DNA of 64,000 nt. It comes from Brucella pseudogrignonensis (lineage in GTDB: Bacteria > Pseudomonadota > Alphaproteobacteria > Rhizobiales > Rhizobiaceae). Shown in pieces: positions 6,593-38,685 of the stretch. The first letter of the stretch is position 1. Each line of letters begins with the position of its first letter. The notes beneath the pieces were generated by a model. The model saw nothing but the letters and a program-made list of their open reading frames with translations. It was not told the origin of the DNA and did not search any database. The stretch covers positions 124,001 to 188,000 of the forward strand of contig NZ_NNRM01000021.1 of assembly GCF_002252525.1 (NCBI RefSeq). The letters are read 5' to 3'. A program made the position numbers and the translations under genes.

Positions 6593-6891
6593 TGACGCGT
6601 GAAGTCTTGGAATACATCATTGTTCCACCATATGAGCGCGCGGCTCAGGTGGCAGATTCAGCAGAGATGCTTAAAGACCACTTATCCCGTAAGTTTCCGG
6701 GCTACAGCTTTAAGATATCCGGTTTTGTACCGGTTGGGGATGAGGAAGAATTCTGCGTCCTCCCGATCATGAACTATCTCAGCCCAGATGGTCGCTCGCT
6801 TATGTGCGAGCAACCTAATCGGTGGTTCATGGCGGACATCGCTAAGGCTTGCCGTGATTTCGATTTTGACAGCAAGAAATTCGCTGCTTAG
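6592..6891 (+). CDS. Unknown phage protein next to the repressor
   Basis: 99 residues, acidic, mixed alpha/beta, no known motif. Its TAG (6889-6891) interlocks with the TAA of the convergent repressor gene (6888-6890), so the two stops share bases in the string TTAG. Coupled to the preceding Cys-rich gene by TAATG. Confidence 0.6.
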   Translation: MTREVLEYIIVPPYERAAQVADSAEMLKDHLSRKFPGYSFKISGFVPVGDEEEFCVLPIMNYLSPDGRSLMCEQPNRWFMADIAKACRDFDFDSKKFAA

Positions 6892-7580
6892 AACATCGGC
6901 GCACTGACTATCTGTATCACCAGTCCAATAACCCGGACGGTTTCGCCATTGTCCGGGTCTTCATTTTTCTCAATAATTATTGGCTTATGGCGTGCGCTAG
7001 TTGATCTTGGATGAAACTCCGCCCGATCATCAAAGAGTTGAATTTCCTTTACGGACCATTCGCGCATCTGACCGCCATCACGCTCGCGCTCGACAACTAC
7101 TGTCAGACCGTTCCGCAACGGAAATTCGTGCTGAATGTCTTCATAGGCTAAAGCAATTACCCTATCCCCCGGTAAAATCGGACGTGGTTTAAGGGCGTTC
7201 ATTGAATCCCCAGCTACATCAAAGGCAATGATACGCGCATTCGGGAAACGTTCGTCGCGCTCAGCTGGTATCTCCGGCAAGTCGTCTTGGTTGGTGTCAT
7301 CAACTTCGCGAAATGAGCCAGCGTCAGCAGTGCCAATCACTTTGGCAACAGTTTGCTTCTTTGATTTGACCGGTACGGCATCGCTACCTGGAATAGGGAT
7401 GCCAATGTATTCTGATATCTTCTGCAACTCGTGGACTTTGATTGAGCGTGTACCCTTTAGTAGGCGCGAGATCTGCGGATGAGCAACGCCAAGATATTGA
7501 GCTAGCCCTGTTTGGGTTTTGCCGTCTACCTTCAAGCCTTCTCTGATCCAGTCGATATAGGTTTGCTGCAAATTTTCCAT
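6888..7580 (-). CDS. CI-type XRE/S24 phage repressor
   Basis: 230 residues from the chosen start (MENLQQTYID). Residues 23-43 form an XRE helix-turn-helix (TQTGLAQYLGVAHPQISRLL). A linker carries the Ala87-Gly88 autocleavage site (TADAGSF), and the C-terminal S24 peptidase has catalytic Ser126 in AGDSMN. It should hold the prophage silent and be cleaved with RecA after DNA damage. An in-frame ATG at 7634 exists, but it would put an operator-like sequence (TATCGTACA, 7625-7633) inside the gene, while the chosen ATG has no Shine-Dalgarno and may be read leaderless. The start is therefore uncertain; the family is not. Confidence 0.92.
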   Translation of the reverse strand: MENLQQTYIDWIREGLKVDGKTQTGLAQYLGVAHPQISRLLKGTRSIKVHELQKISEYIGIPIPGSDAVPVKSKKQTVAKVIGTADAGSFREVDDTNQDDLPEIPAERDERFPNARIIAFDVAGDSMNALKPRPILPGDRVIALAYEDIQHEFPLRNGLTVVVERERDGGQMREWSVKEIQLFDDRAEFHPRSTSARHKPIIIEKNEDPDNGETVRVIGLVIQIVSAPMF

Positions 7581-7651
7581 GATGGATGATTTTCGCACAG
7601 CCACGCGCGTAATTCCTGTAGCAATATCGTACATTTCCTCTTGCGATGCGT

Positions 7652-7667
7652 GTGCGTTTATCGTACA
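7652..7667 (+). promoter_or_regulatory. Repressor operator copy 3 (cro side)
   Basis: GTGCGTTTATCGTACA, identical over 16 bases to the reverse complement of 6200-6215. It lies nine bases before the cro-like ATG and between the divergent repressor and cro-like genes. A partial copy (TATCGTACA) lies at 7625-7633. This is the expected right operator controlling the rightward early promoter and perhaps the repressor itself. Confidence 0.7.
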
Positions 7668-7675
7668 TTCCTCTC

Positions 7676-7933
7676 ATGAGACACGAGCCAGCAAATAAAA
7701 TCATCAAAGAATTCGGCGGGTTGACCGCCGTTGCGACAATCGTCGGCGTTTCTCCACATACGGTGATGCGCTGGCGTATGCCTAAGCAATCGGGCGGCAC
7801 CGGTGGCGCTATTCCTCACTGGCATTTGCCTATTCTGATTACTGCGGCAAAGGAGCGGAAGCTCAAACTTAAGCCGGAAGATTTCGTGTCTTTCGAGAAA
7901 ACGTCCATGCAATGTGCAAGAGCGTCAGCATGA
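7676..7933 (+). CDS. Cro-like DNA-binding protein
   Basis: 85 residues beginning [10 protein letters not shown]. The helix-turn-helix [20 protein letters not shown] is followed by [20 protein letters not shown], the pattern of small Cro/YdaS-like regulators in rhizobial prophages that sit divergent to the repressor. It would compete for the shared operators and favour lytic growth. The ATG has no clear Shine-Dalgarno and lies close to operator copy 3, suggesting a very short or absent leader. First gene of the rightward early operon; its stop overlaps a possible upstream start of the next gene by ATGA. Confidence 0.8.
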
Positions 7934-33421: not shown

Positions 33422-34507
33422 TCATTTGATAATGTAAGGTTTCTTAAATGCGTGAAAAGGCTTTTCTATTGCATAGTACACTAACGTTCCGATTGCTATT
33501 ACTATTGGAATTTCAATAATGGTGCAGGTGATTATAGCGTCAATTTTATCGTTTGATGTGAACTGAATTGATCTCCATTCAAGTATCTTTGCTAGATTTA
33601 ATTCAATTATCCTATGAACAATGTATATTGAGAAGCTGATTTCTCCAACAAATATAGCTGGTTTATTAATAATTGCCGGTATGTTTATGTCCATTTTTAA
33701 GAATGCCAATATAAACCAAGCGAAAGCTAGTGCTTGAACGTCCGGCCAAATGATCGAAAACCAGTGCATCATCGGCTTGTCTTCCCACGGGTGCGCAGAC
33801 CCATAAATCTCGTGGAAGTACTGAACGGAGATTGCAATCATCACGATCGAAGCCAACAGAGAAAGGGAGCCGCCGACAAACGGCATACGCCAATTTCGGT
33901 ATGCATATCCCGCAAGCATTCCAATAAGGAACTGATCTCCTCGCCCTAATAGCGTCCAGTATCCAAGGTGGTTGACATCGTGATCAAGCCCCCAGAGAGC
34001 AGCGCGTAGAAGAATCAGGACGATGACGAGTAAGACAATTCGTTGAATTCCATCTCTTGCCAACACTAAAGTAAGGAATGGGAAAATAAGGTAAAACTGG
34101 AACTCAATGACAATAGACCAAGTTTGACCAAACATTGTTCCCGGCCATGCAGTCGGGGCAAAAAGCGCCATCTGCATTAAAAAATCGGGAAAACTGCTTT
34201 TCAGTGTCAGAACACCAGCCAAAACAGCTAGTCCATACAGCGGGTAAATTCTCCACATTCGTGCTTGGATAAACCGCCAGTAATTAACCTTCTTTCCAGC
34301 CACGATGTATTCAAAGATAAACCCGGAAACTACACAAAATAGAGAAACTCCTATTGCGCCTTCGGCTAGAATGCTTGCTCCCATCGGCCAAGTGTCGGTT
34401 TTAAAGCTGGGCAGAAATGAATCGAGATAATGTCGGTATACAACCAACAATGCTCCAATTCCGCGTATAATATCCAACCTGCTTAAATAATTAGGGTTGC
34501 TGAGCAT
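33422..34507 (-). CDS. Acyltransferase 3 (OafA/YrhL-like) moron
   Basis: 361 residues with about ten membrane helices. The family start is clear: YLSRLDIIRGIGALLVVYRHYLDSF, with the conserved Arg of RGI and His of YRHY, later FSIYIVHRIIE. It would O-acetylate (or similar) lipopolysaccharide O-antigen or another glycan at the inner membrane. It is antisense to all late genes, ends one base from the tailspike stop, is more AT-rich than its surroundings, and is capped upstream by minus-strand terminators: the picture of a lysogenic-conversion moron with its own promoter. The start has a weak ribosome site. Confidence 0.88.
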   Translation of the reverse strand: MLSNPNYLSRLDIIRGIGALLVVYRHYLDSFLPSFKTDTWPMGASILAEGAIGVSLFCVVSGFIFEYIVAGKKVNYWRFIQARMWRIYPLYGLAVLAGVLTLKSSFPDFLMQMALFAPTAWPGTMFGQTWSIVIEFQFYLIFPFLTLVLARDGIQRIVLLVIVLILLRAALWGLDHDVNHLGYWTLLGRGDQFLIGMLAGYAYRNWRMPFVGGSLSLLASIVMIAISVQYFHEIYGSAHPWEDKPMMHWFSIIWPDVQALAFAWFILAFLKMDINIPAIINKPAIFVGEISFSIYIVHRIIELNLAKILEWRSIQFTSNDKIDAIITCTIIEIPIVIAIGTLVYYAIEKPFHAFKKPYIIK

Positions 34508-36971: not shown

Positions 36972-37544
36972 TTAATGCACCCGAGCTCGCATAAAGGACT
37001 GATCGATTGCCTCAAGAGAGCGAACTGTTTCTTCGACCTCATCGATGTTTTCTACGGATAGAACTTGCAGAATGCGTCGAAGCGGAATGACCGTCGAGCC
37101 GCCTTTTGGGTCTTCCCACTCAGGGATATTTTTCGGATCATGTGTCCAGTCACGGATTTCCCATTGGTTCATTTTGCCAAAGGCATCCCAGACAGTGTCA
37201 ACACATTCCAAGTCCGCGTCACTCAGTTCATCGAGAGTATCGAGATCAATGCTCGTATCGGCGAGTGCGATTTGATGATTGGCTTTGTCTTGCAGGAAAT
37301 CTGACCAACCACACTCTTTCAAATCATATTCGCCGTTAATGTGGCTATATGTATATGAGTTGACAGGCCCGTGCGGCATTGAAACACGGGCTTCCTCCAA
37401 CACAGGGAAACCATATCGCTTGATGCTCTCACGGTCTACGAGGTAGACAAGCTTAACCGCTTTCAGGATGTTGAGCGATTGCTCACCGGCCTTCAATATT
37501 AGCGCCGCAATCAACTGCGCTGCTTTTCTCGGTTCATAACTCAT
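36972..37544 (-). CDS. Panacea-domain (DUF4065/SocA-like) antitoxin
   Basis: 190 residues beginning MSYEPRKAAQLIAALILKAG, with AAGGA nine bases before the ATG. The domain is recognised by KAAQLIAALILKAGEQSLNILKAVKLVYLVDRE, RYGFPVLEEARVSMPHGPV and TYSHINGEYDL. Panacea domains act as antitoxins against many unrelated toxins by direct binding, and SocA in Caulobacter is a proteolytic adaptor for its toxin. Gene order antitoxin then toxin fits. The promoter region upstream carries a palindrome of two DnaA boxes. Confidence 0.85.
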   Translation of the reverse strand: MSYEPRKAAQLIAALILKAGEQSLNILKAVKLVYLVDRESIKRYGFPVLEEARVSMPHGPVNSYTYSHINGEYDLKECGWSDFLQDKANHQIALADTSIDLDTLDELSDADLECVDTVWDAFGKMNQWEIRDWTHDPKNIPEWEDPKGGSTVIPLRRILQVLSVENIDEVEETVRSLEAIDQSFMRARVH

Positions 37545-37601
37545 CTTATGGGTCCTTACGCTCGAGGCGTGTACGACTCTGTTATGCGCACCATATAGCG
37601 G

Positions 37602-37642
37602 TTTTCCACAGGAAAGCAATTATCCACAATCATTGTGGATAA
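37602..37642. promoter_or_regulatory. DnaA-box palindrome upstream of the Panacea module
   Basis: TTATCCACAAT-C-ATTGTGGATAA (37620-37642) is a perfect inverted repeat of eleven-base arms with a one-base centre. Each arm contains the consensus DnaA box TTATCCACA. A third, near-consensus box TTTTCCACA lies at 37602-37610 in the same orientation as the left arm. The site is 76-98 bases upstream of the antitoxin ATG. It could be an autoregulatory operator, a DnaA-responsive control site, or part of an origin. Confidence 0.7.
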
Positions 37643-37664: not shown

Positions 37665-37859
37665 TCACTCGTCCGGGTCGGTTCCCCGTTCGCCCATGTG
37701 AATAGCGATAGCGGCCTCAACAATAGCCTTGGCCGCTTCTATCCTATCCCATCCTGCCGCTTCTGCCTCATCTAGAGCTTCGACCAGTTTACCGGATACC
37801 GCTTCCTGACATTCTAGCCCACGATCTGGATAATTGCCTTCGCGCTTTGGTCCGTTCAT
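37665..37859 (-). CDS. Small phage accessory protein
   Basis: 64 residues, acidic and Ala-rich (LVEALDEAEAAGWDRIEAAK), helical. A strong AGGAGG lies five bases before the ATG. Similar short proteins are frequent in alphaproteobacterial prophages. It lies between the integrase-arm fusion gene and the Panacea module on the same strand. Function unknown. Confidence 0.65.
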   Translation of the reverse strand: MNGPKREGNYPDRGLECQEAVSGKLVEALDEAEAAGWDRIEAAKAIVEAAIAIHMGERGTDPDE

Positions 37860-37910: not shown

Positions 37911-38441
37911 TCAAGCACTTCTGGATAAGAACATTGCGAGTTCTCCCTCAAGCCTAAACCATTCGCCCTTTTGTCGGTAAGAACCGAAGTGTGTATGAAA
38001 GTATCGCTCAGTCTGGCTTGTGCCGGGTATGATCTTGATAATTTCAATCTCGGTAGGGCAGGCGGTCGATATGCTTTTCAGGCGCTTCGGGACGGATTTG
38101 GAGAAACCGATCTTCACTAAGTCACCGGACCGCGCAAAGTAGGTGTATCCGACAGTCCCTTTTTCAAGGGAATATGATGGCAGTGCGGCGGGCTCAGAAA
38201 CTTTGAAGGCCTGACCATTAGCTGCAGCATCGTACGCACGATTGAATATTGCCGCGCCGACGAGATCGGGATCCGGCAAGCGAGTACGGCGTCCTTTCCC
38301 AATCCGAAAGTAATATACAGTCTTGCCATGCCGAGTTGTATTCTTCTCAATATGACGCTTGCCCACCACCGATCTCTCGAGTAATTCAGCATCTTTCTTC
38401 GCCTGGATTATACGATTTTGAACATAATTTGACTTTGTCAT
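37911..38441 (-). CDS. Integrase-arm domain fused to a T5orf172/GIY-YIG-like nuclease
   Basis: 176 residues in two parts. Residues 27-80 (KRHIEKNTTRHGKTVYYFRI, GRRTRLPD, NRAYDAAANG) copy the N-terminal arm-type DNA-binding segment of rhizobial tyrosine integrases. Residues 95-172 read VGYTYFARSGDLVKIGFSKS, KRLKSISTACP, ERYFHTHFG and GEWFRLEGEL, the T5orf172/Mug113 version of the GIY-YIG fold with its conserved Tyr, Lys-Ile-Gly, Arg, Glu and Trp-Phe positions. The recombinase catalytic domain (Arg-His-Arg-Tyr) is absent. It is the prophage gene nearest tRNA-Pro. Confidence 0.75.
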   Translation of the reverse strand: MTKSNYVQNRIIQAKKDAELLERSVVGKRHIEKNTTRHGKTVYYFRIGKGRRTRLPDPDLVGAAIFNRAYDAAANGQAFKVSEPAALPSYSLEKGTVGYTYFARSGDLVKIGFSKSVPKRLKSISTACPTEIEIIKIIPGTSQTERYFHTHFGSYRQKGEWFRLEGELAMFLSRSA

Positions 38442-38608
38442 TTTCTAATCCTGTTGCCTTGGAACAATACTAGAACACCCGTGGCTTTTCGCGTGGCGTT
38501 TTTTGTTCTGACGCTCGCCACGCCGTGCATCTGTGTTCATTTCGTTCTTTTTTCATATTTTAAGGGCTTGCGGTTTAAGCCTTTATATTCTACGGCTTTT
38601 TCATGGTC

Positions 38609-38685
<77 letters not shown>

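Follow-up and report, generated by a model that had tools for sequence, protein, structure and literature searches.

A chimaeric gene joining an integrase-type arm domain to a predicted GIY-YIG nuclease beside the attachment site of a Brucella pseudogrignonensis prophage

The chimaeric gene and its prophage

The stretch of DNA analysed here (the window) comprises 64,000 nucleotides of Brucella pseudogrignonensis contig NZ_NNRM01000021.1 and includes one end of a ~43-kb prophage. The last gene of this prophage (37911..38441, minus strand) predicts a chimaeric protein of 176 aa, in which an arm-type DNA-binding domain is joined to a GIY-YIG (MUG113/T5orf172) nuclease domain. A helix (residues 4-26; 38364..38432, minus strand) precedes the arm domain (residues ~28-77; 38211..38360, minus strand), which sequence searches found to be homologous to the N-termini of tyrosine integrases. 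Phage_integrase was present in 10 of 10 full-length ORFs with the window-type arm that were tested. The predicted fold, a sheet of three strands (residues 31-35, 41-45 and 53-55) and a helix (residues 63-74), matches solved arm domains, and residues 28-81 share this arrangement with the arm domains of P4-like integrases (PDB 3ju0 and 3rmp). However, the P4-like proteins continue into a catalytic recombinase domain, whereas the window protein does not, and no PF00589 was found in its 176 aa by Pfam.

The GIY-YIG domain (residues ~95-174; 37920..38159, minus strand) scores well above the Pfam cut-offs for both MUG113 (52.9 bits, cut-off 22.3) and T5orf172 (35.2 bits, cut-off 20). Its core residues, with roles assigned by analogy with GIY-YIG enzymes, are Y99 and Y101 (YxY, 99-101), the KIG beginning at K110 (110-112), R120 and E145. 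The second tyrosine usual in GIY-YIG is a lysine, as it is in other aligned MUG113/T5orf172 proteins. Structure comparison of this half of the model with solved proteins gave low Z scores (4.4 for 1ywl, 4.2 for 6sei and 3.1 for 1yd2), and the model of the sister protein of locus L070 gave 5.9 with HIGLE and 5.8 with Slx1. Nothing was found at E<=1 among PDB sequences with a profile of the fusion alignment, or at E<=1e-3 with Foldseek; NCBIfam has no family for the window protein, RepA_N is not among its Pfam matches up to E 1, and PADLOC gave only weak PDC-S57 matches, which are confined to the nuclease part. With the key residues kept, the gene product is probably a DNA-cutting protein. An earlier note, made from the sequence alone, had described an integrase arm domain that lacks the recombinase domain and is followed by a GIY-YIG/T5orf172-like domain, and every part of that description is borne out.

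The prophage occupies a tRNA-Pro (GGG) gene (38609..38685, plus strand), which represents attB. The attR core (38583..38647) is identical over 65 bp to attL, which is to the left of the window (contig C13:119640-119704), and this repeat spans the first 39 bp of the tRNA and another 26 bp ahead of it, showing that the phage integrates using the 5' half of the gene. The identity takes in those 26 bp, and the region upstream of tRNA-Pro beside attR may accordingly have been supplied by the phage. The prophage integrase (C13:119721-120857, minus strand; PF00589, 4.4e-31) is 16 bp from attL and is preceded by an ORF that appears by eye to be excisionase-like. The chimaeric gene starts 141 bp from attR, and the intervening segment (38442..38582) is the phage-side (P') arm of attP, where five GAAC/GTTC words (38462, 38473, 38505, 38535 and 38544) stand as putative arm sites. 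Because the integrase gene adjoins attL and the chimaeric gene adjoins attR, the order in the circular phage is int - attP - fusion, all on a single strand, with 222 bp between the two genes. The placement at a prophage end next to a tRNA, also proposed in the earlier note, is confirmed by the repeat.

Further into the prophage, an ORF of 64 aa (37665-37859) separates the chimaeric gene from one for a Panacea/SocA-like antitoxin-domain protein (36972-37619, minus strand; SocA_Panacea, E 1.4e-20), which is the only such match in the genome. The prophage also includes an acyltransferase-3/O-acetyltransferase gene (33422-34507, minus strand) that is likely to be a surface-changing lysogenic conversion gene.

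Close relatives and a prophage that lacks the gene

Two relatives, in Mesorhizobium sp. CA8 (L002) and in an IMG/VR record (L004), are each 52% identical to the window protein over its full length and share its architecture. The L004 record has a 127-bp terminal overlap and was therefore read as circular, with the integrase gene (6714-7778), attP and the fusion gene (from 7998) following one another. Its 48-bp attP core is the 3' end of a tRNA-Gly, a gene that ARAGORN found in L060, and L002 is an integrated form with the core of L004 at both ends. Between the fusion genes of L002 and L004 dN/dS is 0.045 overall, a value that comes from a single pair with a dS of 1.49, which is near saturation. 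The arm half gives 0.036 and the GIY half 0.051, and in this pair both domains thus appear to be under strong purifying selection. The dS of the neighbouring integrase genes is only 0.545. So large a difference suggests that one gene has been exchanged between phages, and the histories of nuclease and integrase seem to be partly separate in these two.

The attP of L004 (7779-7997) contains four TGTAAAAC repeats, at 7787, 7799, 7935 and 7987, and the last of these ends 3 bp before the fusion start codon. Nuclease expression might be blocked when Int is bound at that site. These repeats were considered as arm sites of the fusion protein and rejected, because look-alikes stand beside related integrases (TTTTACA in L223, TGCAAAAC in L229 and TGTAAAA in L231), and inspection by eye of the ~120-800 bp behind int found no arm-GIY gene in any of these three. 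The repeats were assigned to the L004 integrase.

Another prophage (L233/L234, IMG/VR 3300031110_000342) is inserted in the same tRNA-Pro. Its integrase is 91% identical to that of the window prophage and the flanking host genes are similar by eye. On the attR side the two are 89% identical from 38687 to 38472 and alignable to about 38460, and the right arm of L233/L234 also holds five GAAC/GTTC words. The alignment ends some 20-30 bp before the fusion start codon, and beyond that point the sequences differ. A profile of the fusion that detects the window gene at 7.9e-101 has no match in the L233/L234 record. The gene borders the conserved right arm on its outer side, like a cassette, and in this single case it is present in one and absent from the other of two close relatives at one attB. 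As judged from this one comparison, the fusion gene is an optional add-on to the integration module, and the recombination module works without it as far as sequence can tell.

Integrase N-domains fused to nucleases at other integration sites

The loci collected were scanned with local profiles of four kinds (arm domain, GIY-YIG, HNH and a second type of integrase N-domain), which identified at least 13 distinct genes in which an integrase N-domain is followed by a nuclease. Seven are GIY-YIG fusions (the window gene and those of L002, L004, L194, L195, L070 and L071) and six are HNH-like (L063:3192-3746(-), L064:4971-5603(+), L066:4744-5355(+), L067:4309-4878(-), L076:4992-5573(+) and L077:4803-5339(+)). 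All seven GIY-YIG fusions retain KIG, Arg and Glu, and the six besides the window gene likewise exceed both Pfam cut-offs. Among PHROG families, the HNH parts match those of endonuclease, endonuclease VII and HNH, with phrog_3322 found in all six (3.4e-20 to 3.3e-26); Pfam reported nothing for the four HNH-like fusions that were tested. Four further candidates (L012, L062, L065 and L072) were rejected as fusions, since by sequence they appear to be integrases, in some cases truncated or interrupted by a contig end. Pfam was run on the last three of these, and only L072 was above the cut-off.

Two types of N-domain, RHG..YFR and PHVxWRDGRPRF, and two nuclease folds occur across the set. The PHVxWRDGRPRF type is found in L070 and L071. 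In L071 it shares 39 of 60 positions with an adjoining recombinase-like ORF, and in L070 it shares 38 identities, over 76 alignment columns of which 18 are gaps, with an integrase-like ORF at the opposite end of the prophage. These partners were detected by our own integrase profile only, at 7.7e-10 for L220 and over the C-terminal region of the L071 ORF, and Pfam Phage_integrase did not match the integrase-like ORFs of L071, L220 and L200 that carry this N-domain. The L220 ORF is at a prophage end adjoining a tRNA-Lys. Almost solely the nuclease half of the model of this type found structural partners, and its N-domain is best described as a putative arm domain.

All 13 genes are on the strand of the integrase and beside the integrase gene, the attachment site or both. 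Eight overlap int or adjoin it directly (gaps of -50 to +1 bp, with some start codons chosen by us and the L194 integrase split over two ORFs), the L071 fusion is 672 bp behind int, and four (window, L002, L004 and L070) are across attP from it. The six arm-HNH genes start within 17 bp of the integrase stop and are likely to be translationally coupled to the integrase. In L194, L195, L064, L066 and L067 the nuclease gene is followed at 9-69 bp by a tRNA gene found with ARAGORN, which detected none there in L063, L076 and L077; behind the arm-HNH gene of L077 is a presumed att core that by eye looks like a tRNA 3' end. A 46-bp tRNA-Lys repeat marks both ends of the L070 prophage; the fusion gene is 667 bp inside one of them, and the integrase-like ORF is 1083 bp in from the other. 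The earlier note had proposed to see whether homologues are found at integration sites, and all 13 distinct loci show this. An unrelated N-terminal part, or homologues without a link to integration sites, would have spoken against the proposal; both were looked for, and neither was found.

GIY-YIG genes without an arm domain were used as a control. An integrase was present within 1.5 kb in 8 of the 32 loci counted as arm-less. Two of the 32 (L006 and L023) were later recognised as the L070/L071 fusions, and the cleaned figure is 7/30, which still includes the xis-like fusions L011 and L159. Among the fusions, 10/13 have int within 1.5 kb and the other three have an att repeat within 0.7 kb, a comparison that is uneven in that the att-repeat search covered the fusion loci and not the control loci. 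GIY-YIG genes in general therefore show some attraction to integrases, less than the fusions do.

Three genes of another form were seen, in which GIY-YIG is located behind an excisionase-like helix-turn-helix (L011:1480-1938(-), L196:5699-6487(-) and L197:4336-4839(-)). The likeness rests in L011 on a HTH_17 match below the cut-off (4.3e-5); for L196 and L197 it was judged by eye. Where xis would be expected, directly ahead of the integrase gene, L011 and L196 have the GIY-YIG gene, and the three may be another kind of chimaera of the integration module. L077 has, after int and the arm-HNH gene and behind the presumed attP, a GIY-YIG gene without an arm (L077:5503-5883(+)). By eye this gene begins with SYFKQR, and a similar SYFxQR start is shared by the window gene, L002 and L004. 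It is possibly an ancestor-like form of the window gene.

The relation of each RHG..YFR-type arm to its partner was assessed against 84 integrase N-termini, gathered by their similarity to window-like arms, so that the ranks in this biased panel are descriptive only; L070 and L071 fall outside it. The own integrase ranks 83 for the window, 81 for L002, 79 for L004, 63 for L194, 43 for L063 and 41 for L066, and ranks high for L195 (7), L067 (6), L064 (4), L076 (2) and L077 (2). The closest matches of the window arm in the panel are integrases of other loci, which reach ~52% identity (28/54 with L007). The arm clearly resembles the own integrase in L067, L070, L071, L077 and L195 (24/48 in L195 and 27/55 in L077) but not in the window, L002 or L004. 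As far as can be judged from these alignments, the arm domain of the window lineage probably does not target its own phage, and the suggestion in the earlier note that it binds the attP arms of this prophage is not supported. The mismatch fits either a domain captured from a rival or a later exchange of the integrase module.

A motif hunt behind integrases with the fusion-type arm yielded no assignable arm-site sequence. One candidate, GGTGCGG, looked enriched behind same-arm integrases and was dropped because two inverted copies stand 76 bp apart in L066 and L074 and tRNA genes are located behind int; it was taken to be a tRNA acceptor stem.

A candidate attachment-site-directed nuclease

The explanation that we place first, at about even chances, is a free-standing nuclease of the homing-endonuclease or Odn type that is directed at attachment sites and serves to cut competitors, to home, or both. 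The arm domain would be the aiming part and the GIY-YIG domain the cutting part of one protein. Where an element has an integrase with the same kind of arm, the arm domain would dock on the arm-type repeats next to that element's attachment site, and the nuclease would cut at the docked region, in the att of competing or gene-less elements. Cutting would damage or block the attP of an incoming competitor, and repair from the nuclease-carrying copy would spread the gene, as with intronless homing endonucleases. This reading rests on the two domains, the active-site residues, selection in one pair, the position at int or attP in 13/13 loci and the occupied and empty alleles, and it is from these that we infer DNA binding, cutting, the sites hit and the beneficiary. 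Of the roles suggested in the earlier note, attack on rival elements and protection of the attachment site are both plausible.

The nearest precedent, and the closest in working principle, is Odn of phage ICP1 (Gp88), a T5orf172 nuclease with a DNA-binding domain in common with the replication initiator of a rival, at whose origin it is directed (PMC8263062). The Odn N-terminus is 42% identical to the RepA_N domain of the satellite (PMC8263062). Odn and the window protein are alike in joining a T5orf172 (GIY-YIG) nuclease to an N-terminal DNA-binding domain that also occurs in a protein encoded by a different mobile element, and in retaining Arg and Glu in the GIY-YIG motif. They differ in that Odn has RepA_N, acts on the replication origin of a satellite and belongs to a lytic phage (PMC8263062), whereas the window protein is a predicted nuclease with an integrase arm domain, at the attP of temperate phages; an arm domain that does not match the own integrase would also fit a domain taken from a rival as in Odn. 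The earlier note knew of no description of such an activity. This holds for an integrase-derived version, for which no report was found among the open-licence PMC papers listed, but not for the principle, for which Odn is a related precedent.

Nuclease activity is glutamate-dependent for T5orf172 in at least one case, and T5orf172 homing genes carry exchangeable DNA-binding domains, with CapR/DUF723/DUF4397 zinc fingers in 200/229 and RepA_N as another (PMC10448857). The T5orf172 and IPA-HNH homing genes of ICP1-like and other phages resemble the fusions in being free-standing, in exchanging domains and in varying between related phages; integrase arm domains and a position at attP are not mentioned in the sections of the paper covered here (PMC10448857). 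HNH-AP2 homing genes are also mentioned, citing Magnani 2004 (PMC10448857). The six HNH-like fusions place the arm domain first and stand directly behind int. In AP2-HNH homing endonucleases, by contrast, HNH is N-terminal and AP2, whose fold is related to integrase arm domains, is C-terminal.

Several observations weigh against an attachment-site-directed nuclease. No one target rule obviously fits all of the loci, given that the arm matches the own integrase in some and not in others. GIY-YIG genes without an arm also occur near integrases (7/30 within 1.5 kb), the second tyrosine is a lysine, and only one empty allele was found.

The main rival, which we consider unlikely, is a regulator of integration or excision that acts at arm sites, in competition with Int or in its support, as a directionality factor or repressor, with a nuclease that is idle or only nicks. 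Such a role would suit the eight genes that abut or overlap int, the N-domains that resemble the partner integrase (L195, L077 and L071) and the TGTAAAAC repeat just before the L004 start codon. However, a prophage with the same attB and right arm and a closely similar integrase lacks the gene, which seems dispensable for recombination, the arm is unlike that of the partner integrase in the window, L002 and L004, and the nuclease residues are kept in all GIY-YIG fusions, with both halves constrained in the single pair tested.

Improbable to the same degree as a regulator is a standard phage homing endonuclease or moron whose DNA-binding domain is arm-like but whose target is other than an att site; on this view it would be one of the cargo genes that prophage ends often carry. 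The 7/30 arm-less genes and the presence of another accessory-looking gene, the Panacea-domain ORF, beside the fusion in the window prophage would be in keeping with this, but the aiming domain is specifically that of an integrase, and two N-domain types with two nuclease folds are found at int or att in 13/13 loci. It is very improbable that the product is a toxin with the Panacea protein as its antitoxin: the two genes are on the same strand and about 0.3 kb apart, but SocA_Panacea, detected in the window, matches nothing in either the Mesorhizobium genome that includes L002 or the L004 phage record, and the neighbour common to the fusions is int/attP. Hardly any weight is given to a decaying integrase relic produced by chance fusion, for although truncated ORFs with this arm exist (150 aa in L062 and 246 aa in L065), the architecture is complete in two relatives 52% identical to the window protein, with low dN/dS between them, and it recurs at other loci beside the partner integrase.

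An attachment-site-directed nuclease thus remains our preferred reading of the window gene. We put it at somewhat below even chances that the fusions form a distinct class of such nucleases, carried by temperate phages and islands and assembled repeatedly from an integrase N-domain and a GIY-YIG or HNH domain, which attack attP with matching arms and home between integration modules.

Competition for one integration site is usually seen as a matter of occupancy and repressor immunity. If the proposed activity is true, it would also be fought by cutting, and the integration module would have a direct weapon, or else a parasite, in a nuclease that takes its aim from an integrase DNA-binding domain. 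With Odn as a precedent, such a mechanism is credible and testable. Because the pattern recurs across two types of N-domain and as many nuclease folds, the class can be searched for by architecture, and natural pairings of nuclease and att site could be tested and used as tools.
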